A stretch of DNA of 64,000 nucleotides from assembly GCF_001696605.3 (NCBI RefSeq), contig NZ_CP031716.1, positions 2,294,001 through 2,358,000 of the forward strand. Direction: 5' to 3'. The position numbers were made by a program, and so were the translations under genes. Source of the stretch: Acinetobacter wuhouensis. Its GTDB lineage: Bacteria; Pseudomonadota; Gammaproteobacteria; Pseudomonadales; Moraxellaceae. Every line of letters begins with the position of its first letter. The stretch's first letter is position 1. The notes below the pieces were generated by a model, which ran no database searches, was not told where the DNA came from, and saw only the letters and a program-made list of their open reading frames with translations. Of the stretch, positions 7,363 to 43,823 are shown in pieces.

Positions 7363-7478
7363 AGCTGGCGATGACTTACTCTCACATGGGTAACCCCACA
7401 CTACCATCAGCGCTAAGAGGTTTCACTTCTGAGTTCGGGAAGGGATCAGGTGGTTCACTCTTGCTATTGTCGCCAGCA
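7363..7478 (-). rRNA. rrf: 5S ribosomal RNA
   Basis: This is a roughly 115-nt 5S rRNA read on the minus strand. The terminal helix is GCTGGCG at the 5' end pairing with CGCCAGC at the 3' end. The internal CCTGATCCCTTCCCGAACTC and GAAGTGAAAC segments are canonical for loops B and C. Ends are approximate to 1-2 bases. Confidence 0.95.
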
Positions 7479-7673
7479 AACTGTTTATGATTAATCACTT
7501 GGTCTTATTTAACTGTATTTACAGTGTGTGCCTAGCTTTGGTCAAATGAGTTATTAACAGGATAATTTGAGTTGGTAATTGTATCTAGCTTTTGAACTAA
7601 ATCAAGGTCAATCATTACTGATTGTTTGGTTTTGAATCGATTGATGCATACAACACAACTGTTTGGGTGTTGT

Positions 7674-10570
<2,897 letters not shown>

Positions 10571-10995
10571 ACCCCAAACAGTCGCTTGTTCCTACAAGTA
10601 GAACAATCAACATTACAGTTTGAAGTACTGTGCACCTAAGCACCGTACAGCTTCAATCTAAATTCATATACCAAAACGCTTGATTCAGTTTAATCGCTAG
10701 TAACTCAATTTCTCTTAATCATTCAAACATGTCACTTGCGTGTCATATTCTTATGTTTAATTGAAATGAGTATGAACAATTTATTTCAACTCAAATATAT
10801 TCTGTTAATGATTAACTACCATCTCGTCGATGCGTAGTAAACTGTGATAAATCACAGAAGTTAACAAGACGCGTATAATACGCCGACTTCTTATTAATTT
10901 CTATAATCTAGGACTTCGTTCGATTAAAGCCTGCGCAAAGCATAGCTTTTTGCTTAAATTTTAAGGAAAAGCGTTGCTTTTCTATTCTTAAAATT
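10571..10995 (-). other. 23S to tRNA-Ala spacer with processing stems
   Basis: This is the internal transcribed spacer of the rRNA operon. Next to tRNA-Ala (10956-10996) is a nested hairpin: outer arms AAATTTTAAG and CTTAAAATTT, inner arms GAAAAGC and GCTTTTC with a GTT loop. It is probably a cleavage signal for releasing the tRNA. Next to 23S, the plus-strand segment at 10559-10584 (contains CCCCAAACAGTCG) is the complement of the distal flank at 7660-7683 and forms the RNase III stalk. No open reading frame is credible here. Confidence 0.7.
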
Positions 10996-11071
10996 TGGTG
11001 GAGACTAGGAGAGTCGAACTCCTGACCTCCTGCGTGCAAAGCAGGCGCTCTACCAACTAAGCTAAGTCCCC
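10996..11071 (-). tRNA. alaT: tRNA-Ala (anticodon TGC)
   Basis: A 76-nt cloverleaf includes an encoded CCA end. The acceptor arm is GGGGACT / AGTCTCC, the D-arm contains AGTTGGTAGAGC, the anticodon loop is TTTGCAC, and the T-arm contains GTTCGACTC. It sits in the 16S-23S spacer, the usual partner of tRNA-Ile. Confidence 0.97.
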
Positions 11072-11144
11072 AGCTTAAGACCAATATATCTAATTTTCTG
11101 TATTCTATATTTAAACTCTCATTCAAATATTTCGTTAGTCAGAA

Positions 11145-11221
<77 letters not shown>

Positions 11222-11280
11222 TCAGATACATCAATGAAGAACAACTTGTTGTGGATTCTTACCAATCGTCAATCTTTCGT

Positions 11281-12819
<1,539 letters not shown>

Positions 12820-34661: not shown

Positions 34662-34734
34662 ATGTCGCGAATTAAAAACAGATGTTACACACTTTAAAAA
34701 CTATGCGCCTTTCAAACTGTTTTAGAGCATACTC

Positions 34735-34930
34735 GGCGGAGTCTTATGTCGAAAGTTTTAATTTCAGGGTTAGCCTGCGGCTCGCCCTACTTTTTTTTCG
34801 GAAAAAGTAGGCAAAACCATTGTCATTCGCAAAACTCGTCAATTACCATCTTTTGATTGATATATCGCGGAAACATTAACTTACAGATGTAGTCCTGCCT
34901 CAAACAGTTGCGAATGACGTTACCGCGTAT
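34735..34930 (+). repeat. Structured intergenic repeat, copy A
   Basis: First of three related elements of about 200 bp (others at 37749-37974 and 43501-43697). It runs from CGGAGTCTTAT to CCGCGTAT. It contains a small hairpin AGCC-TGC-GGCT near 34772. A 26-nt hairpin at 34786-34811 has arms CCTACTTTTT and AAAAAGTAGG with loop TTTCGG. A long-range helix joins GTCATTCGCAA (34822-34832) to TTGCGAATGAC (34908-34918). It lies between convergent genes. A 36-codon reading frame (MSKVLISGLACGSPY...) crosses it but is closed by a stop in copy B, so coding is doubtful. No transposase is associated. Confidence 0.85.
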
Positions 34931-34991
34931 CCAATTTTATTGAGAAACAAAAAGTGTTTTAACTTACTGCATAACATTTTTAAAATAAAAC

Positions 34992-35879
34992 TTAAACCTT
35001 CTGCGCAATCTCTATAAACGCCTTTGCAATTGGACTGATCTGCTTTTTATTCTTTACTGCCAAACCGATTGAACGCTTAATATTGGGTGATAAAGGCAAT
35101 TTCTGCACATTGGGAAATAACGTCATCAATTCCTGATTCAATGCCATATCCGCCACAATCGAAATCCCTGCATGATTATTCACCATATTAATAATGGTTA
35201 AAATCTGCGAAAAATGACACTTAATTTTAGGGCTTAGATTAGCTTTTCTAAACATTTCAGTAACATGACTTTGACTGCCTGCTGAAGTCATTAAAAATGG
35301 ATGCTCGACTAATTCCTGCAAACTCACGGCACTTTGCTTTGAAAGTTCATAAGATTTTGGAATCAAAGCCACAAAAATATCATTCATCACAGAGAATGTA
35401 TCAAAGCGCTCATCAGGCAACACCACAAACCCCACATCAATACGGCGCTCCTGAATCCATTGTGCAATATCTTTGTCTGTACCCTCTTTGATAAATACTT
35501 CAATATTGGGATATTCAATGCTAAATTTTTCTAAAATCAGTGGAATCAGCACATTGGATGAAGATGCACCAAAAGAACCAATACGCAATGTACCCGAATG
35601 AAAACCATGAATATCCGAAATTTCTTGTTTTAATTGATTGGAAATATTAAGAATTTCCTGCACATGTAACAACAGACGAGCGCCTGCTTCAGTGAGTTCT
35701 ACTTCGTTATGATCACGATGGAATAAGGTCACTGCCCAATCTTGTTCCAAACTTTTAATTGCATGAGAAATCGCAGATTTCGAAATTTGCAAATGATGTG
35801 CCACGACTGTAAAACTTTTCTGCTCTGCCAAAAGCGCAAAAATACTTAATTGGGTAAAAGTCATGCACACATTGCTCAT
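34992..35879 (-). CDS. LysR family transcriptional regulator
   Basis: This 295-aa regulator has an N-terminal winged helix-turn-helix (FTQLSIFALLAEQKSFTVVA, then SKSAISHAIKSLEQ, about 7-50) and the standard linker ending TEAGARLL. The effector-binding domain (about 90-290) begins LRIGSFGASSSNVLIPLILE. It is divergent from an AEC-family transporter gene, the usual LysR arrangement with its target. The ligand is unknown. The gene ends 62 bases from repeat copy A. Confidence 0.9.
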   Translation of the reverse strand: MSNVCMTFTQLSIFALLAEQKSFTVVAHHLQISKSAISHAIKSLEQDWAVTLFHRDHNEVELTEAGARLLLHVQEILNISNQLKQEISDIHGFHSGTLRIGSFGASSSNVLIPLILEKFSIEYPNIEVFIKEGTDKDIAQWIQERRIDVGFVVLPDERFDTFSVMNDIFVALIPKSYELSKQSAVSLQELVEHPFLMTSAGSQSHVTEMFRKANLSPKIKCHFSQILTIINMVNNHAGISIVADMALNQELMTLFPNVQKLPLSPNIKRSIGLAVKNKKQISPIAKAFIEIAQKV

Positions 35880-35911
35880 GAGTAAAAACTCATTTTACCA
35901 TGAAGTATTAT

Positions 35912-35924
35912 TAGGAATATCCTA
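35912..35924. promoter_or_regulatory. Candidate LysR operator palindrome
   Basis: TAGGA-ATA-TCCTA lies in the 117-bp gap between the divergent lysR and transporter genes. Dyad symmetry and position fit a LysR recognition half-box, but binding is not shown. Confidence 0.4.
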
Positions 35925-35996
35925 TACTCAAATTCAGCTATCAATTGTCACAAATGAATTGTTTCAGCCCAATTCAGTAAGGATCAGGCAGCGCAC

Positions 35997-36914
35997 ATGT
36001 TACAAATGATCAATATTCTATTTTCACCGATTGCACTGATTGCCTTGGGATTCTATCTATTCCAATCGCGTACTTTGGATGAAAAATTTTGGAATGGTGC
36101 TGAAAAGCTGAATTATTATGTACTGTTTCCCTCATTGCTGTTTAGTTCATTGGCGAGTGCCAATATGCACATGGGACACCTCGACAGCATTTTGATGGTG
36201 ATTTTTGCCATGATGGCGATCATCATTGTCAGTACCTATATTTTTGCTAAACTGAATAAAAGCCCAGATGCACATTTCGGGGTATATATCCAGAGTCTGA
36301 TTCGGTTTAATACTTATATTGGGCTTTCGATTGCAACCACACTACCCAACCCTGAAATTAGAAGTATTTTGGTCAATATTTTGGCAATCGCCATTCCTTT
36401 TGTAAATGTAGTGTCCATTCTTTCACTGACACCGAAAAATCAATTAAATATCAAAAATATTGCGATTTCATTGATCAAAAACCCTTTGATTAATTCCTGT
36501 ATTCTTGGCATTGCTTTTAACCTATTACAGATTCCGATTTGGACGGGTTTTCAAAGTTTATTACAGGCATTTTCAAGTAGCAGTCTAATGTTAGGCTTAC
36601 TGTGTGTTGGTACGGCAATTCAATTTAAAGGCGTGCAAGCCTATTTCAAAACCGCATTCATCATTAGCTTGGCAAGATTGTGTATCATTCCAATCGTGAC
36701 ATTTATCGTATTGCAATTTTTTTATCTGAATTACGCAGCTGTCATCGCGATCATGATTTTCTTTTCTATCCCGACTGCTTCAGCCTCGTATATTTTAACC
36801 AAGTTACTGAATGGTGATTATCAACTCATGGCTGCTGTGATCAGCTTACAGACGATTTTGTCAGTATTTACATTGGCGATCATGTTGGCTTTGCTTCAAA
36901 GTTATTATTTTTAA
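35997..36914 (+). CDS. AEC family transporter (auxin-efflux-carrier type permease)
   Basis: This 305-aa integral inner-membrane protein has about ten hydrophobic segments in two sets of five. It starts IALIALGFYLFQSR, has central TYIGLSIATTLPNPEI, and ends SIPTASASYILTKLLNGDYQLMAAVISLQT, the most conserved part of the AEC family. Members export or import small organic acids such as malate or malonate, or amino-acid derivatives; the substrate is unknown. It is divergent from the LysR gene that probably controls it. The next possible start is Met4. Confidence 0.88.
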   Translation: MLQMINILFSPIALIALGFYLFQSRTLDEKFWNGAEKLNYYVLFPSLLFSSLASANMHMGHLDSILMVIFAMMAIIIVSTYIFAKLNKSPDAHFGVYIQSLIRFNTYIGLSIATTLPNPEIRSILVNILAIAIPFVNVVSILSLTPKNQLNIKNIAISLIKNPLINSCILGIAFNLLQIPIWTGFQSLLQAFSSSSLMLGLLCVGTAIQFKGVQAYFKTAFIISLARLCIIPIVTFIVLQFFYLNYAAVIAIMIFFSIPTASASYILTKLLNGDYQLMAAVISLQTILSVFTLAIMLALLQSYYF

Positions 36915-37011
36915 AACTGATTCAGTAGCTTACATATTCATCTACATGATAAATTGATATTGTTATTTAGAATTTTAGATTCAAAACATATCCAAAAGAA
37001 TATCGGAAGTT

Positions 37012-37045
37012 CCTTCTCCCTTTGGGAGAAGGCTAGGATGAGGTT
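37012..37045 (+). repeat. REP-like palindromic element, copy 2
   Basis: CCTTCTCCC (37012-37020), TTT, GGGAGAAGG (37024-37032), then CTAGGATGAGG and a T-run. It has the same layout as 24821-24854 but the opposite orientation. It lies between the convergent transporter and isomerase genes, and the hairpin plus T-run could terminate the plus-strand transcript. Confidence 0.65.
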
Positions 37046-37054
37046 TTTTAAATA

Positions 37055-37651
37055 CTATTCAACCGCTTGCAATGCATGTTCCACAAAATGTAAGTGATCA
37101 ACACCCCAATACATTTCATCCCCCACAAACCACGTTGGCGCACCAAAAACACCTCGTTCAATGGCTTCCTCAGTCACTTGTTTAAGCTGATTTTTAACTT
37201 GATCATCGGCAAGCCATGTTTGTACCTGATTAATATCAAGTTCCAGTGATTGCGCCAATGTAACCAGTTCATTCATATCATTTAAGTTTTTCGGCTGTCC
37301 AAACATTGCATCAAATAAACCTTGCAACACTTTTTGAAAATTTTCAGGCTGATACAGTTGCACGGCTGTAATCAAACGCATCAGGTTCAAGGTATTAATC
37401 GGGAAATACGGATTCATTTGCACAGGAATATTCCAAAGTTTTGACCATCTGCCCAAATCAATCATCGAATAACGTGCTTTGGCAGGAACCGCCATCGGAC
37501 TACTATTCCCTGTTGCCTTAAAAACACCGCCCAATAACATCGGTTTCCAAATAATTTCTGCTTGATGTTGCGTCGCAATCTGCTGAATACGGTAAAAACC
37601 CACATAACTATATGGACTACCAAAATCAAAATAGAATTCCACTTGTTTCAT
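37055..37651 (-). CDS. DsbA-family 2-hydroxychromene-2-carboxylate isomerase-like protein
   Basis: This 198-aa thioredoxin-fold protein of the HCCA isomerase / kappa-GST group has the N-terminal signature EFYFDFGSPYSYVGFYRI (5-22) with the catalytic-type Ser12 and no CxxC. The helical insertion is complete, and the C-terminal AIERGVFGAPTWFVGDEMYWGVDHL (about 165-188) is characteristic. HCCA isomerases use glutathione in naphthalene breakdown, but most chromosomal members have unknown substrates. No aromatic degradation genes are near. It is inside the segment flanked by inverted repeat copies A and B. Confidence 0.85.
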   Translation of the reverse strand: MKQVEFYFDFGSPYSYVGFYRIQQIATQHQAEIIWKPMLLGGVFKATGNSSPMAVPAKARYSMIDLGRWSKLWNIPVQMNPYFPINTLNLMRLITAVQLYQPENFQKVLQGLFDAMFGQPKNLNDMNELVTLAQSLELDINQVQTWLADDQVKNQLKQVTEEAIERGVFGAPTWFVGDEMYWGVDHLHFVEHALQAVE

Positions 37652-37748
37652 TTTGCTTTCCTTATCATTTAAATCGAATCAATTTCCTTAAATTACTATC
37701 TGCTATTACATCGTAATGTAAAAAACTTATTAACCTTGATGAATATTG

Positions 37749-37974
37749 ATACGCAATAACATCATCCGCAACTGTTCGAGGCAGGGCTACATCTGATACA
37801 TACTGTTTTTGCGACGCAATTAATCAATATTTAGTAGCTGACGAGTTTTGCGGTGAGGAGCAACGCTCCGCAAGGTGGTTTTCTTGCGAAGCTTCGCTTC
37901 TCATTTTCCGAAAAAAAAGTAGGGCGAGCCGCAGGCTAATCCTGAAATTAAAACTTTTGATATAAGACTCCGTC
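37749..37974 (-). repeat. Structured intergenic repeat, copy B (rearranged centre)
   Basis: In minus-strand reading it matches copy A from CGGAGTCTTAT through AGCCTGCGGCTCGCCCTAC and the T-run. It matches again from GCAAAACTCGTCA to GCCTCGAACAGTTGCGGATG and GCGTAT. The 3' arm of the T-rich hairpin is replaced by about 45 bp that carry their own palindromes (GCGAAGCTTCGC at 37886-37897 and GGAGC-AAC-GCTCC near 37857). The long-range helix is reduced to about 6 bp (CCGCAA/TTGCGG) but still pairs after base changes. It lies between the isomerase and SDR genes, inverted relative to copy A. Confidence 0.8.
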
Positions 37975-38056
37975 TAAAACGTTAAATAATTTTAGCTTTT
38001 AACTTCAAATACTTACGAAATTTAAATTTTTTCATTCAATTAATCATCAAACAGTA

Positions 38057-38800
38057 TCACCACTTTTCAATCCAAGGACGTAAATCCAATTCATGCGTCC
38101 ATGCATCACGAGGTTGTTGTGCAATATGCCAATAATTTTCCGCAATATGCTCAGGATTTAAAATACCATCCTGATCTTTCTTTTCATACAAATGCGGAAA
38201 CGTATTCTTAATAAAATCAGTATCAATCGCGCCATCCACCACTACATGCGCCACATGAATATTTTGTGGACCAAGCTCACGTGCCATACTTTGTGCCAAG
38301 GCACGAAGCGCATGTTTTGCCCCTGCAAATGCAGCAAAATAAGCAGAACCACGCATACCTGCGGTTGCACCTGTAAAAATGATTGTACCTCGTTGACGAG
38401 TCACCATTCGTTTAGCCACTTCACGTCCAACAAGGAATGCCGCAAAACATGCCATTTCCCAAATCTTAAAATATTTACGTGCTGTTTCTTCTAAAATACT
38501 GCACGGTACATTCGCACCAATATTAAAAACTAAAACATCAATTTCACCAATATTCGCTTCAATCTCTTCAATCAGTTGAATAACCTCTTCCTCCTTACGT
38601 GCATCGGATGCAAAACCATAAGCAACACCGCCAAATCCTTCTATTTCTTGAATCAAAGGCTGTAACTTATCCGCATTACGGCGTGTCATACAGCTAATAT
38701 ATCCACCTTGTGCAAAACGTTTTGCAATTGCACCACCTGTGGCATCCCCCGCACCAATCACGAGTGCCACTTTATTTCCCTGCTGTTTTAATTCATTCAT
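38057..38800 (-). CDS. Atypical SDR oxidoreductase lacking the catalytic tyrosine
   Basis: In this SDR-fold protein (247 aa from ATG), the cofactor motif is VIGAGDATGGAI (14-25), with FNIGAN replacing NNAG. The YxxxK position reads FAGAK, so the usual catalytic Tyr is Phe158 with Lys162 kept, and the catalytic Ser is replaced by Thr/Gly (FTGATAG). It may bind NAD(P) with a changed or lost reductase activity. A longer frame begins at GTG 38812; ATG 38800 is preferred because GTGAG precedes it at 7 bases. It is divergent from a TetR gene with an operator-like palindrome between them. Confidence 0.8.
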   Translation of the reverse strand: MNELKQQGNKVALVIGAGDATGGAIAKRFAQGGYISCMTRRNADKLQPLIQEIEGFGGVAYGFASDARKEEEVIQLIEEIEANIGEIDVLVFNIGANVPCSILEETARKYFKIWEMACFAAFLVGREVAKRMVTRQRGTIIFTGATAGMRGSAYFAAFAGAKHALRALAQSMARELGPQNIHVAHVVVDGAIDTDFIKNTFPHLYEKKDQDGILNPEHIAENYWHIAQQPRDAWTHELDLRPWIEKW

Positions 38801-38853
38801 TATTGTGCTCACTTTAAACGAACAATACGGTTGTTAAATTACCCATTAATAAA

Positions 38854-38887
38854 ATAACGATCGTTATCATAACGATTACTATGTTAT
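38854..38887. promoter_or_regulatory. Candidate TetR operators between SDR and tetR genes
   Basis: A perfect 14-bp palindrome, ATAACGA-TCGTTAT (38854-38867), is followed by a second imperfect dyad, ATAAC...GTTAT (38869-38887), which repeats the ATAACGAT half-site. Position between divergent genes and palindrome size fit a TetR-family autoregulatory operator. Confidence 0.6.
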
Positions 38888-38981
38888 AATTCCCCAACAT
38901 CGTCAAGCTTAATTTATAATCAAATAATTTAAGCTCATGACAATAATTATATTTATTCCGTTGAATATGTGAGATAGCACA

Positions 38982-39551
38982 ATGCGTTATAAATCAGGCT
39001 ATAAAGCTGAGAAACGTCAAGAGTTATTGGACATCAGTGGTCAAATTGCCAAAAAAAATGGCTTTAGTGCCACAGGTGTAGACAGTTTTATGAAAGCTGC
39101 AGGTGTGACCAGCGGTGCTTTTTATTCTCACTTTTCATCTAAATCTGATTTATTCAAAGCTTTGATTGAAAATGAATTACAACACAGTCTTCAAATGTGG
39201 CAAGACAATCCACATCAAGAGGATGCTGAAGCGTGGATGGACTTTGAACTCAATCGCTACCTGTCAATTTCTCATGTAGATCGTCCTGATCATGGCTGTG
39301 TATTGCCGACTTTAGCCAGTGAAGTTGCTCGTTCTGAGATTGACATAAAACAAGTGTATCAAGCTGAACTGCTCCGCGGTCAGCACCTTTTTATGAAACA
39401 TTTGGGCAGTGAAGAAAAAGCATGGGCGGTGATGTGCCAATTGGTCGGAGCAATACTGATGGCACGTAGCATGACAGATGAATCGATCAAATTGTTGATT
39501 TTAGAATCAAGCAAACAGTGTATTAAAGCCATGTTGCAAAAGGCATCATAA
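38982..39551 (+). CDS. TetR/AcrR family transcriptional regulator
   Basis: This 189-aa repressor-type protein has an N-terminal helix-turn-helix at about 10-55 (RQELLDISGQIAKKNGFSATG, then AAGVTSGAFYSHFSSKSDLF, the typical recognition-helix signature). It has a C-terminal helical ligand-binding domain with RPDHGCVLPTLASEVAR. It is divergent from the atypical SDR gene, with palindromic sites between them, so it probably represses both itself and the SDR. Confidence 0.9.
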   Translation: MRYKSGYKAEKRQELLDISGQIAKKNGFSATGVDSFMKAAGVTSGAFYSHFSSKSDLFKALIENELQHSLQMWQDNPHQEDAEAWMDFELNRYLSISHVDRPDHGCVLPTLASEVARSEIDIKQVYQAELLRGQHLFMKHLGSEEKAWAVMCQLVGAILMARSMTDESIKLLILESSKQCIKAMLQKAS

Positions 39552-39617
39552 TTTTATATTTAAGCTCACTATAAACTGCTATAAATACGCTATATTCCTT
39601 ATAAAACCGTATAAATC

Positions 39618-40334
39618 ATGACTGCTCCAACATCTGCTTTGCCTAAAACGATCTATGCAATTCAACATTTAGCTTTTGAAGATTTGGGTATTCTTGAAGA
39701 TACCTTTTATGAACACGATTATCGGGTTCGCTACTTTGAGGCAGGTGTTGATGATTTAAAGAAAGCCTTTGAATTTGAGGGCTTGGTGATTATTTTAGGT
39801 GGTCCGATTGGGGTCTATGAAACAGAAGACTATCCATTTTTAAATGATGAAATTGCCTATTTAAAACAACGTTTAGCAAAAAACTTACCCACGATTGGGA
39901 TTTGTTTGGGTGCACAACTGATTGCCCATGCTTTGGGGGCAAAAGTTTATGCAGGACACCAGAAAGAAATTGGTTGGTCTAAATTAAAGATTCAAAATAT
40001 TCCAAATAATCCGTTATTGCCTTTGGAAAATACTGAAGTTTTGCATTGGCATGGTGATACTTTTGATTTGCCTGAACATGCTGAATTATTGGCGAGTTCA
40101 GAAATCTACTCGAATCAAGCTTTTAGAATCGGACAAAATATTTTAGCGCTGCAATTTCATGTCGAAGTGGCTGCTGACAGTATGGAAAAATGGCTCATTG
40201 GTCATACGTGTGAATTACGCAAAGCTGAAATCAACATTCCACTGTTACGTGATGACAATGAAAAATATGCGCCTATTTTAGAGACCAAATCTCCGCAGGT
40301 TTTAGCGAACGTTATGAACCAGTTAAGTTTTTAA
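39618..40334 (+). CDS. Class I glutamine amidotransferase-like protein
   Basis: This 238-aa protein is related to the GMP-synthase glutaminase domain. The nucleophile elbow is GICLGAQLIAHALG with Cys96, and the His-x-Glu pair is His181/Glu183 in LQFHVEV, so the triad is complete. LILGGPIGVYE (59-69) is the oxyanion strand. No synthetase domain is attached. Stand-alone members include gamma-glutamyl-polyamine hydrolase-like and uncharacterised enzymes; the substrate here is unknown. The gene follows tetR by 66 bases and may be cotranscribed. Confidence 0.85.
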   Translation: MTAPTSALPKTIYAIQHLAFEDLGILEDTFYEHDYRVRYFEAGVDDLKKAFEFEGLVIILGGPIGVYETEDYPFLNDEIAYLKQRLAKNLPTIGICLGAQLIAHALGAKVYAGHQKEIGWSKLKIQNIPNNPLLPLENTEVLHWHGDTFDLPEHAELLASSEIYSNQAFRIGQNILALQFHVEVAADSMEKWLIGHTCELRKAEINIPLLRDDNEKYAPILETKSPQVLANVMNQLSF

Positions 40335-40348
40335 TTTTTCATGTGATA

Positions 40349-40378
40349 AAAAAGCACTCAAATTGAGTGCTTTCTTTT
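40349..40378. terminator. Bidirectional terminator
   Basis: AAAGCACTCAA / TTGAGTGCTTT perfect 11-bp stem with a 1-nt loop and A/T runs on both sides. It lies between the convergent amidotransferase and yceI genes. Confidence 0.88.
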
Positions 40379-40397
40379 AAATATCTGTTTTACAAAA

Positions 40398-40976
40398 TTA
40401 TTTTGCCACAGAAGCTTCAGTTGTAATGTTTACAGTGATTTTATCACCCACGTTTGGAACATAAGCACCTACACCAAATGCAGAACGATCAAATGAAGTC
40501 GTTGCATTGAAACCTACTGTTTCTGCTTTAGTCATTGGGTGCGCACCTGTTTTATTTAAAACAGCATCTAAAACAACAGGTTTAGTCACATCTTTCACAG
40601 TTAAATTACCTGTGATTTTGTATTTGTTTTTACCTAAAGCTTGAACTTTAGTACTTTTAAAAGTGATGTTTGGATATTTTTCAGCATCAAAAAAATCAGC
40701 TGTTTTTAAGTGCTCATCCAAAGCTTTAACGTTTGTATTTAAGCTTGATAATGGAATCGTTACATTCACAGAAGAATCTGCAGGTTTAGCTGTATCTACA
40801 GAAATCGTTCCCTGAATGTCACTAAAGTTTGCAGACGGTGTAGAAAAACCAAAGTGATTCCAAGTAAATACAGTTGCAGTATGCGTAGGATCAATTTTGT
40901 AGTCTACTGGTTTAGCGACAGTAAAAGTTGCTACAGAAGCGATCGCTAAGCCTAGTGTTAATGATTTAAAGTTCAT
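40398..40976 (-). CDS. yceI: YceI family periplasmic lipid-binding protein
   Basis: This 192-aa protein has a signal peptide (MNFKSLTLGLAIASVATFTVA, cleavage before KPVDYKIDP). The mature domain is a lipocalin-like barrel: YKIDPTHTATVFTWNHFGFS, then NITFKSTKV and KITGNLTVKDVTKPV, diagnostic of YceI. The family binds isoprenoid or polyprenoid chains in the periplasm. It is probably monocistronic, ending at the bidirectional terminator. Its 5' region is shared divergently with the OsmC-like gene. Confidence 0.92.
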   Translation of the reverse strand: MNFKSLTLGLAIASVATFTVAKPVDYKIDPTHTATVFTWNHFGFSTPSANFSDIQGTISVDTAKPADSSVNVTIPLSSLNTNVKALDEHLKTADFFDAEKYPNITFKSTKVQALGKNKYKITGNLTVKDVTKPVVLDAVLNKTGAHPMTKAETVGFNATTSFDRSAFGVGAYVPNVGDKITVNITTEASVAK

Positions 40977-41249
40977 GTTCTTAATCTCTCTTTAGAATGA
41001 TTGCTATTCTATACGCTTCACATTTTAATTCACTGTTATTGCTAATACGTTATGTTGCATATATGCAACGATTCTACACCCTGAATCACCTCAGGTTTTA
41101 AACCTATGTTTTCACATAAAATACTGACAATATGAATAAACAAGAAGTAGGATTAAATTAAAGTCAGAAAATAGATCAAGAAATTACACTAGAGTTTTCA
41201 TCTAATTTTCGTTATCTATAGTATTAAATATTCTATTTGGTAAATTTGA

Positions 41250-41660
41250 ATGGTTCATTCCGCACAAGCGCTCAGCATCCAAACACCTTATCGTGTCACA
41301 CTTAGCAATCCTCAAGGTCATACGTGGTATGCCGATGAACCTTTGGATAAAGGTGGTAAAGATACCGCACCAAATCCGATGCAAATTTTACTCTCAGCTT
41401 TAGGCGCATGTACTACGGTGACTTTAGAAATGTATGCCAACCACAAGGGCATTCAACTCGACCATGTGCAAGTTGATTTGGCTTTGAACCCTGAGGGTGA
41501 TCCCGAAGCTGGTCATAACAATATCGTGAGAAAAATCACATTAAAAGGTCAATTCACTGAAGATCAACACAAACGCCTATTAAAAGTCGCTGAAAGTTGC
41601 CCTGTTCACAAATTATTAACCTCAAATATTCAAATCCAGTCTGAATTAATTGTTGAATAA
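41250..41660 (+). CDS. OsmC/Ohr family peroxiredoxin-like protein
   Basis: This 136-aa OsmC-fold protein has the two conserved cysteines of the family, Cys54 in LLSALGACTTVTLEMY and Cys117 in AESCPVHKLL. They form the thiol-peroxidase centre that reduces organic hydroperoxides. It aligns better with the YhfA/OsmC-like group than with Ohr. It is divergent from yceI. No clear ribosome site precedes the ATG, so the start could be slightly different. Confidence 0.88.
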   Translation: MVHSAQALSIQTPYRVTLSNPQGHTWYADEPLDKGGKDTAPNPMQILLSALGACTTVTLEMYANHKGIQLDHVQVDLALNPEGDPEAGHNNIVRKITLKGQFTEDQHKRLLKVAESCPVHKLLTSNIQIQSELIVE

Positions 41661-41815
41661 TTGAAAACTTAAGCCAATTATCAACATATTATTCAGCACT
41701 GAATAATTGAGTTTACATTCGGTTTAAACTGACAATATCAAGACGTTTAATTCAATTGCCAGTTTAAATCGGAACCATCACATTTGAACGATAATACCCG
41801 CATTTTAGGCGATAT

Positions 41816-41929
41816 TTACATAAAATAGTTTGTTAAAAAATAACCCGCTACAACACCAATAAATGAATACAACACCATGATAAAGAAGACAAAACTAGTT
41901 TTATTTTTCTTTCTTAAAAACTTCATCAT
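41816..41929 (-). CDS. Small single-pass membrane protein (37 aa)
   Basis: This short frame reads MMKFLRKKNKTSFVFFIMVL then YSFIGVVAGYFLTNYFM and a TAA stop. It has six basic residues in the first ten, then about 25 hydrophobic residues, a classic small inner-membrane protein with a positive-inside N-terminus. The ribosome site is weak (GAGA about 9 bases before the ATG pair). It is alone in a 528-bp gap between the OsmC-like gene and the mechanosensitive channel gene. Function unknown. Confidence 0.5.
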   Translation of the reverse strand: MMKFLRKKNKTSFVFFIMVLYSFIGVVAGYFLTNYFM

Positions 41930-42188
41930 ATTGAAGGTCTCACATTTCAAAAATAAAAAGATATTTTAGTATAACTGCCCAGCAATGCGTAGGTGCACTT
42001 CTTCACAAAGAAACTATAACAGATGTGGAAATTCACGGCATATCTGTTATATACATTTTAGCTGTAAGCAATCTTAAGTAAGTTCATTATTTCTGTGCAA
42101 ACAATGTAGCGCAAACGTTATCAATCAAGATATTGTCATTAATTATCAATAGAATAACCACATTTGACAATATAAGAGGTTTTTACTT
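41930..42188. promoter_or_regulatory. Upstream region of channel gene with 9-bp inverted repeat
   Basis: An inverted repeat, ATAACAGAT (42016-42024) and ATCTGTTAT (42042-42050), may be an operator or hairpin. The AAGAGGT at about 42172-42178 is the ribosome site for the TTG start at 42189. No further gene was seen. Confidence 0.4.
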
Positions 42189-43460
42189 TTGGAAAAGTTT
42201 GCTTTTATCCAAAACATTCAAGATTGGTCTGATCAATATCCTTGGTTAGAAATGCTCACTTCACTGGGGATCCTGATTGGTTTCGCTTTATTGGCAAACT
42301 TTGTTGCTAAACAAGTTGTTGTGCGTGGCATCCGAAAGCTGATTGAAAAATTAAAATTCGCCAATAGCGACATTTTATCTCAGCATAGTGTCATTCGCCG
42401 CATTGCCAATATTGTTCCCGCCATTGTAATCATTAATGGTATTGTCACTGTTCCACATTTATCAGAAAAAATGATTTCAGTGGTACAAATGCTTGGTCAA
42501 GCCTTTATTTTTGTGACAATTGCGTTGGCAATCAGTGAATTTCTCAGTATTTTCAATTTAGTCTACCAAAAAAATCCTAAGTCTCGTAATAAGCCAATCA
42601 AAGGATATTTACAGTTAGTCAAACTGATCATTTATATCGTTTGTGGCTTATTGATTTTAGGCACATTCCTGAAAAAAGATGTATTCAGTTTACTTGCAGG
42701 CTTTGGTGCAATGGCTGCGGTATTGATGTTGGTATTTCAAAATACCATTTTATCACTTGTAGCTTCAGTTCAAATCTCATCTTATGACATGGTACGCATT
42801 GGTGATTGGATCGAAATGCCTTCTTTAAATGCTGATGGCGATGTGATCGATATGTCACTTCATACCATAACCGTACAAAATTTTGATAAGACTTTTACCA
42901 CCATTCCCACCAATAAATTGGTCACGGATACATTTAAAAATTGGCGTGGGATGAAACAAGTTGGTGCGAGACGTATCAAGCGTTCTATTTTTATTGATCA
43001 AAATAGTGTGCATTTTTTAAGTGCACAGGAGCAAAATAAATTTAAAGCATTTTTATTGCTGGATTCCTATCTGAATGAAAAACAAAACGAGCTGAAAGCG
43101 TTTAATCAGCAATTTTTAAATGATGCAATGCTTAACCAACGTCGTTTAACCAATATTGGAACCTTTCGTGCTTATGTAACAGCCTATTTGAAGCAACATT
43201 CAGGCATTTCACAAACGCAAACTGTGATGGTACGTCAAATGCAACCGACCAGTGAAGGTTTACCTTTGGAAATTTATGCATTTGCTAACACCACGATTTG
43301 GGGTGATTATGAGATGATTCAATCTGATATTTTTGATCATCTGATGGCGATCTTACCTGAGTTTGGTTTAAAAATTTATCAAGCACCTTCTGGCTCTGAT
43401 TTGCAAGCGATGTTTCAGCAAAATCATGTTGTGAATCACGATCAGCATTTTTCGTCTTAA
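42189..43460 (+). CDS. MscS-family mechanosensitive channel, YbdG-like
   Basis: This 423-aa inner-membrane channel has transmembrane helices at about 20-40, 75-90, 96-112 and 140-160. The pore helix region, LLAGFGAMAAVLMLVFQNTILSL, is followed by a cytoplasmic beta domain (VRIGDWIEMPSLNADGDVIDM, then HTITVQNFDKTFTTIPTNKL and FKNWRGM). That segment is the hallmark of the YbdG/MscM subgroup. It protects cells from mild hypo-osmotic shock. The start is TTG with AGAGG about 9 bases upstream; the next ATG (codon 19) would remove part of the N-terminal segment before the first membrane helix. Confidence 0.87.
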   Translation: MEKFAFIQNIQDWSDQYPWLEMLTSLGILIGFALLANFVAKQVVVRGIRKLIEKLKFANSDILSQHSVIRRIANIVPAIVIINGIVTVPHLSEKMISVVQMLGQAFIFVTIALAISEFLSIFNLVYQKNPKSRNKPIKGYLQLVKLIIYIVCGLLILGTFLKKDVFSLLAGFGAMAAVLMLVFQNTILSLVASVQISSYDMVRIGDWIEMPSLNADGDVIDMSLHTITVQNFDKTFTTIPTNKLVTDTFKNWRGMKQVGARRIKRSIFIDQNSVHFLSAQEQNKFKAFLLLDSYLNEKQNELKAFNQQFLNDAMLNQRRLTNIGTFRAYVTAYLKQHSGISQTQTVMVRQMQPTSEGLPLEIYAFANTTIWGDYEMIQSDIFDHLMAILPEFGLKIYQAPSGSDLQAMFQQNHVVNHDQHFSS

Positions 43461-43500
43461 TAAATAACCTGTGTTCGAAGTGGATTTTCACCAACTTTCG

Positions 43501-43697
43501 ATACGCGGAATCGTCCTTCGCAATTGTTTGAGGCAGGACTAAACCTACAGGTTAATGTTTTTGCGATAATTTTGATATGTTTCGGTATGTGTCGAGTTCT
43601 GCGAAGGACAATGGTTTTGGTTACTTTTGCCGAAACAAAAGTAACTCCAACCGAAGGTTAATCCCCGATATATGAACAAAAACAATGAGACTCCGTC
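43501..43697 (-). repeat. Structured intergenic repeat, copy C
   Basis: In minus-strand reading it shares the frame of copy A: GACGGAGTCTCAT at one end, CCAAAACCATTGTC in the middle, AGTCCTGCCTCAAACAATTG and CCGCGTATCG at the other end. The hairpin at 43620-43645 has arms GTTACTTTTG and CAAAAGTAAC, changed at three pairs relative to copy A with pairing kept. The long helix is GTCCTTCGCA / TGCGAAGGAC (43513-43522 with 43600-43609), again with a compensating change. The small hairpin is AACC-TTC-GGTT instead of AGCC-TGC-GGCT. It lies between the channel gene and a small minus-strand gene. Confidence 0.85.
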
Positions 43698-43823
43698 ACA
43701 ATGAACTTTATATAAATTATTAAAATAACTTATCAAACTCACATTAAATATCCACTGCACTTAGTTTGGGTGCAATGAGGGTTTCGTTATTCTGATTTTA
43801 AATTTTTTATTACACATAAAACT

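Follow-up and report, generated by a model that had tools for sequence, protein, structure and literature searches.

Why would three copies of an intergenic repeat keep the same helices paired while the paired letters themselves change? The question is raised by a 64,000-nucleotide stretch of the Acinetobacter wuhouensis genome (contig NZ_CP031716.1, positions 2,294,001 to 2,358,000), here called the window, in which a first-pass annotation had described copies A, B and C with compensatory changes and had left a structured RNA family or a non-autonomous element mobilised in trans as the main options. Sequence search, alignment and a covariance model place A at 34735..34930 on the plus strand and C at 43501..43697 on the minus strand, and alignment, the covariance model and the flanks place B at 37749..37974 on the minus strand; all three lie where they had been reported and align over their length. 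We consider it probable that they belong to an old Moraxellaceae family of non-autonomous elements resembling miniature inverted-repeat transposable elements (MITEs), with a hairpin core, ends moved in trans and a role at the ends of genes. The family is also far larger than the three-copy repeat first described, with 43 BLAST matches to A and 47 to C in the 3.96-Mb host genome (40 of 61 and 40 of 67 candidates scored, respectively), which occupy at least 43 places after starts less than 450 bases apart are merged.

The ends first proposed for the repeat bound only its core. This core of about 196–200 bp is hairpin-rich and sits between two end regions of about 55 bp each bearing inverted repeats, the complete elements spanning 280–372 bp in a terminal inverted repeat (TIR) search with false matches set aside. 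Ends of four types were scored by script, with mis-paired flanks as the control, in a table of 70 rows that includes window copies A and C; at least two false matches remain in these counts (L152, A type; L119, C type), and the left end of the host copy L010 is doubtful. Perfect 5-bp duplications flank 9 of 25 elements with A-type ends (ACTGATGTTACGCA; 0.79 expected), perfect 4-bp duplications flank 6 of 9 with C-type ends (AACGTGAGTTCGA; 0.88 expected) and perfect duplications of 10–13 bp flank 14 of 27 with K-type ends (TAATGCTGATCAGTTAAG; about 0.08 expected), these being 14 distinct elements. For M-type ends (TACCATTCTTGG), 7 of 8 have a perfect 3-bp duplication against 3.57 expected, a weak result because the target, TWA, makes the control expectation high. 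The presence of four end types with differing duplication lengths suggests that several unrelated transposases carry one core. These transposases, supplied in trans, would recognise the ends, move the element and duplicate its target.

In the window, the TIR search extends element A to a 304-bp span with A-type ends (34678..34981, plus strand), with a left inverted repeat ACAGATGTTACACA at 34678..34691 (plus strand) and a decayed right one at 34968..34981 (minus strand). Element C has C-type ends, AATGTGAGTTTGA and TCGAACACAGGTT on the element strand, and occupies 43466..43745 on the minus strand, flanked on both sides by the direct repeat AAAT (43462..43465 and 43746..43749), its target-site duplication. 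A copy from another genus (L465) likewise has C-type ends, with ATTT seen by eye on both sides.

Mobilisation in trans, one of the two options originally offered, is thus favoured by the inverted repeats, the target duplications and, for the K type of ends, an IS4-family partner; for the types borne by copies A and C of the window, no such partner was found. The K-type partner is an insertion sequence (IS) inserting into intrinsic terminators, and the case that its transposase moves K-type elements appears well supported, as the two share ends, duplications and target. One A. lwoffii genome has eight or more contig ends no further than about 90 bases from sequence identical to the K-type right end, and one such stretch has 38 bases in common with a K-type element before diverging. 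Close relatives on plasmids are ISs of 1.39 kb with a 434-aa IS4-family transposase (Nterm_IS4, E 4.2e-24; DDE_Tnp_1, E 7.8e-20; NF033592, E 3e-70). The IS sits inside intrinsic terminators with 12-bp palindromic duplications, for example CACTGTAAAGTG, as do the K-type elements. The left end of a 72% identical IS variant is exactly the 18-base left end of the K element; a 38% identical variant ends in CAATGCTGTTCACTTAAG, and another genome has two inverted CAATGCTGTTCACTTAAG pairs 289 bases apart. The transposase is matched in 18 of 119 genomes of the genus (fragments and distant relatives counted), with many copies in several. IS1182, a first candidate for the K-type mobiliser, was replaced by IS4 after the IS was found. 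Terminator-inserting copies of the IS4 family include those at loci L236, L237, L238 and L264. For the A-, C- and M-type ends, the 5-, 4- and 3-bp duplications point to other transposases.

Three elements of the host genome have A-type ends but a different hairpin-rich core, hence ends and cores are modular. These second-core elements (L176, L186 and L179, at host-genome positions 563001-563372, 1528291-1528667 and 3088069-3088454) show by eye the helices GTTGGACAT/ATGTCCAAC, GGCGACA/TGTCGCC and TTACTTTG/CAAAGTAA, and their core has no Rfam match. At two A. sichuanensis contig ends (L331, L333), starts of A-type elements lead into ...AGCCACTGCGTCTTGC, perhaps a further repeated core variant.

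The three compensated helices reported between A and C are present as described. In copy A (plus strand), P1 (AGCC/GGCT, 34772..34782) is found by the covariation test and alignment pairing, while P2 (CCTACTTTTT/AAAAAGTAGG, 34786..34811) and the long-range P3, with its 5' arm GTCATTCGCA at 34822..34831 and its 3' arm TGCGAATGAC at 34909..34918, are found by these and by the covariance model. In copy C (minus strand) the model places P2 (GTTACTTTTG/CAAAAGTAAC) at 43620..43645 and the P3 arms GTCCTTCGCA (5') and TGCGAAGGAC (3') at 43600..43609 and 43513..43522. Because A and C were among the 52 cores that went into the model, their matches (A, 34765-34918, 173.2 bits; C, 43513-43666, 165.6 bits) are expected by construction. 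Copy B was not among the 52 and was recovered at 37761-37944 (78.9 bits, E 3.3e-17); beyond A, B and C the window holds no further clear match (next E 0.033). A strict motif drawn from the copies matches three times in the window, with none expected from 100 shuffles. In B, said to have its coding broken, the sequence is indeed altered but is not merely broken: AAAAGTAGG..GTCAT is exchanged for a longer hairpin module, which other copies carry as well, and the outer ends have decayed. Such replacement modules (TGAGAAGCGAAGCTTCGC... and GCGCCATGACTGGCTCATGCC) are exchanged among copies, recurring at loci L010, L016, L027, L050 and L056 as well as in window copy B.

Covariation exceeds what relatedness would produce, as judged by a tree-based null, by alignment pairing and by counts of changes on a tree. 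The statistic that the annotation had called for was computed with an R-scape-like script (tree, parsimony ancestors, per-branch shuffles) on 68 of 130 cores, after dropping two duplicates and 60 cores of more than 200 bases, the majority of which carry inserted modules. Five pairs stand above the null, with 0, 0, 0.08, 0.10 and 0.13 null pairs expected at their scores: P2 contributes two, P1 and P3 contribute one each, and the fifth lies at 43-51. As the last crosses P1, it marks an alternative hairpin, TCG-GCT-CGA; the small hairpin AGCC/GGCT therefore stands as a covarying helix, but one that overlaps this second covarying hairpin and is mutually exclusive with it. When 52 cores are aligned by sequence alone, 98.2% of cells are paired, against 88.6% in shuffles and 34–48% when slid, and 116 cells show double changes against 34 in shuffles. 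Counted on a tree of 108 cores, Watson-Crick double changes number 88; changes to G-T number 12, those to A-C 17 and those to other mismatches 26, and another 16 changes start from non-Watson-Crick states. A conserved reading frame was sought as the cause of these changes and rejected, the best frame being open in only 15 of 108 cores.

The core is also conserved in place. In two ortholog groups without recognised ends, core identity is 0.74 (10 loci) and 0.77 (7 loci), against 0.35–0.47 in the 45-base flanks. The nearest core is the ortholog in 9 of 9, 7 of 7, 6 of 7 and 5 of 6 cases in four groups, and compensated changes occur within groups, such as CATCCGCA/TGCGGATG to CATCTGCA/TGCAGATG in L536. 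For group G1, a loose ortholog pattern (89 loci) was dropped for a stricter one (10 loci), and L071 was omitted from the nearest-core test; the last two groups, by eye, occupy the same spacer, between one pair of genes, and differ in the orientation of the element. Because the core is conserved both across genera and, in two groups, at fixed sites, and is kept after its ends decay, we infer that it is itself selected. A further 35 loci of relatives with a homologue of the left-hand gene (19 for A, 16 for C) yielded a single match to the model, at L565, some 1.2 kb away from the end of that gene.

Gene context was assigned with simple open reading frame calls, which placed 156 of 208 matches (6 overlap a call; the rest lack flanks or are duplicates). 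The placed elements comprise 52 in convergent, 103 in tandem and only 1 in divergent contexts, against 107 divergent among 546 other gaps in the same loci (p 7e-12), and among the tandem ones the drawn strand runs against the genes in 65 and with them in 38 (p 0.010); these tests include related loci and are hence not fully independent. Insertions are found downstream of genes, and the core stays conserved in place once the ends have decayed. Its most likely role would be that of a portable gene-end structure, with the P1, P2 and P3 hairpins lying at gene 3' ends and recognised in the DNA itself or from either strand instead of through a drawn-strand RNA. This putative role is suggested by position and lack of strand bias, by analogy with repetitive extragenic palindromes and bacterial interspersed mosaic elements (REP/BIME), whose functions are described in PMC1525189. 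An ordinary neutral MITE family, in which the core has no function beyond transposition, would account for the inverted repeats, target duplications and IS partner, but we regard it as quite improbable, as the core is conserved while the ends differ, and end-less copies are conserved at fixed sites in two ortholog groups. Usual MITEs show the opposite pattern: they are generally recognised by their ends, whereas here the ends vary and the middle is conserved. If several transposases truly carry one core, that core must benefit its own spread or the host.

The near-absence of wobble pairs provides a simple way to ask whether repeat covariation reflects RNA or DNA. Of 296 model matches, 162 were kept after removal of 34 by length, 10 with gaps in P3 and 90 redundant ones. 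The rows counted for P1 (145) and P2 (150) were those with at most one departing pair, a filter that treats G-T and A-C alike. P2 is Watson-Crick in 1493 of 1500 cells (G-T 4, A-C 2), P3 in 1560 of 1620 (G-T 10, A-C 24 as drawn), and P1 has 7 G-T and 5 A-C. The total of 21 G-T to 31 A-C differs from the 68:21 of terminator-like hairpins in the same loci (Fisher p 2.7e-5), of which 107 have one departure under criteria equal for both pairs. Loosening the redundancy cut, which leaves 197 rows, shifts the total to 22:41; a previous count on 108 cores stood at 17:20. Since the drawn strand shows no G-T excess, an RNA from the plus strand is unlikely, and the first-pass suggestion of a structured RNA family is not supported for this strand; no family of Rfam release 15 exceeds its gathering cut-off, and the hits to copy A are weak (E 0.74 and 1.2).

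An alternative is a small RNA or 3'-untranslated-region element that is transcribed from the complementary strand and spread by transposition, with its fold selected as RNA. P3 alone leans to that strand (10 G-T to 24 A-C as drawn, p 0.024; 10:29, p 0.003 with the looser cut), the strand is co-directional with genes in 65 of the 103 tandem contexts, and the unpaired motifs GCAAAACC, GCAAAACTCG and CTCAAACA recur across genera. P2, however, is nearly free of wobble even without the filter (the 108 cores with a complete P2 have 1080 cells, of which 1073 are Watson-Crick), the orientation counts contain related loci, Rfam offers no match, and promoter scans, which covered copies A and C, scored 3 and 1 promoter-like hits where shuffles gave 1.1 and 1.3. 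On balance we find such an RNA somewhat unlikely. An intrinsic terminator within the core was rejected, there being by eye no T run after P2 on either strand; terminator scans of A and C gave one weak hit each at the core edge (34733-34752 and 43505-43521), the latter overlapping a P3 arm.

Perfect pairing could instead arise without much selection on the fold, as a by-product of templated repair (strand switching that corrects quasi-palindromes) or of sequence exchange among copies. In keeping with this, double changes on the tree outnumber single changes off Watson-Crick states (88 vs 55), the short-loop hairpin P2 is the most perfect helix, and modules are swapped between copies. Yet the P3 arms, about 77 bases apart, also covary and carry different letters in other genera, unpaired motifs are conserved as well, and orthologous copies cluster by site, which speaks against frequent exchange; we judge this explanation unlikely.

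Several observations weigh against the preferred reading of a trans-mobilised family with a selected gene-end core. The K-type transposase is matched nowhere in the host genome. Pattern searches of the host genome and three others gave no autonomous partner for A-type ends, nor was one found for C-type ends, which were listed with no transposase looked for. The A-type pattern matches among those read were structured elements, the second core family, lone ends and chance matches. M-type duplications barely exceed their control, window copy A is a decayed A type without a perfect 5-bp duplication, and the ends of B are decayed. A third ortholog group shows no contrast between core and flanks (0.89 vs 0.84; 9 loci, close species) and a fourth only a small one (0.60 vs 0.40–0.49; 10 loci), the wobble lean varies by helix (P1 and P2 together 11:7, P3 10:24), and the tandem bias of 65:38 would fit a complementary-strand RNA too. 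Absence from true plasmids, in the copy A search described below, is odd for an active element. A bolder form of the preferred reading, which we put forward only tentatively, is that the core is a family-wide selfish or domesticated DNA structure tied to no single transposon, which may have picked up ends successively from four or more unrelated transposition systems and, after those ends decayed, been kept at gene 3' ends as a functional gene-end structure.

The covariance model search over Acinetobacter and the Moraxellaceae, proposed with the original annotation, shows how far the family extends. The model, built from A, C and other cores, matches 128 of 149 Acinetobacter genomes, copy counts per genome being lower bounds because at most 20 candidates were scored in each, and in a Moraxellaceae sample it matches 43 of 149 genomes and 7 of 16 genera. 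The family is therefore present in most sampled Acinetobacter genomes, at gene ends, where transcription may be affected. The strict motif occurs at no fewer than 114 loci in named genomes; among the matches listed, 104 are from Acinetobacter of many species, including the hospital species A. pittii and A. nosocomialis. The 10 of 114 listed from outside the genus (six Brucella, one Rhizobiales record, one Colwellia, one Chloroflexi metagenome-assembled genome and one Psychrobacter) were judged chance matches by context, 9 of the 10 having been inspected, and were excluded, as were 4 loci running off the end of a stretch. By eye in 21 loci, the fold is kept across genera with different letters, P3 being for instance TGTGACGCAA/TTGCGTCACA or CGCTGGCA/TGCCAGCG, and the three unpaired motifs named above recur as such or as near variants; the middle of P3, of about 77 bases, is reduced to a short hairpin in two genera and is an internal loop in two others. 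A plasmid collection searched with copy A (other end types not searched) gave no true plasmid, the four matching records being 1.0–4.1 Mb, and viral contigs held no exact match to the motif; spread by plasmids or phages was accordingly rejected.

Elements of the REP/BIME kind, in enterobacteria and pseudomonads, are hairpin-forming and extragenic, often lie at gene 3' ends and reach high copy numbers, traits documented in part in PMC1525189. The present elements share these traits but are much longer and carry transposon ends and target duplications. ISRm22 is described as an IS4-family IS that targets hairpins in REP elements (PMC1525189). The IS described here resembles it in its IS4-family transposase and palindromic target, and differs in that intrinsic terminators are targeted, duplications are of about 12 bp and structured passengers are carried. 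Several features of MITEs are seen in our elements, which are short, lack a transposase and a conserved frame, and have terminal inverted repeats and target-site duplications. MITEAba12 measures 111–114 bp, its 16-bp ends resembling the ends of ISAba12 and its target duplications being 9 bp long, and two Acinetobacter plasmid MITEs measure 439 and 502 bp (PMC6382973). The likeness to MITEs, MITEAba12 included, thus lies in short, non-coding elements with inverted repeats and target duplications, the transposase of the present ones probably likewise acting in trans; they differ in their 280–372 bp, in four end types on one core and in having the core as the conserved part, the ends being compared by description. 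Identity with MITEAba12 was rejected on lengths and duplications. Structured RNAs in Rfam likewise have helices with compensatory changes and conserved loop motifs, but our elements have no match there, and their wobble pairs are nearly absent and unbiased toward the drawn strand. No description of the element family was found in the literature as far as its accessible portions go; overlap with the A. baumannii small RNA groups of Kroger 2018 is possible.

Oppositely oriented pairs of elements, about 100–130 bases apart, were observed at loci L511, L521, L453 and L454. In the window itself, an rRNA operon (5S, 23S, tRNA-Ala, tRNA-Ile, 16S) lies on the minus strand at 7363-12819.

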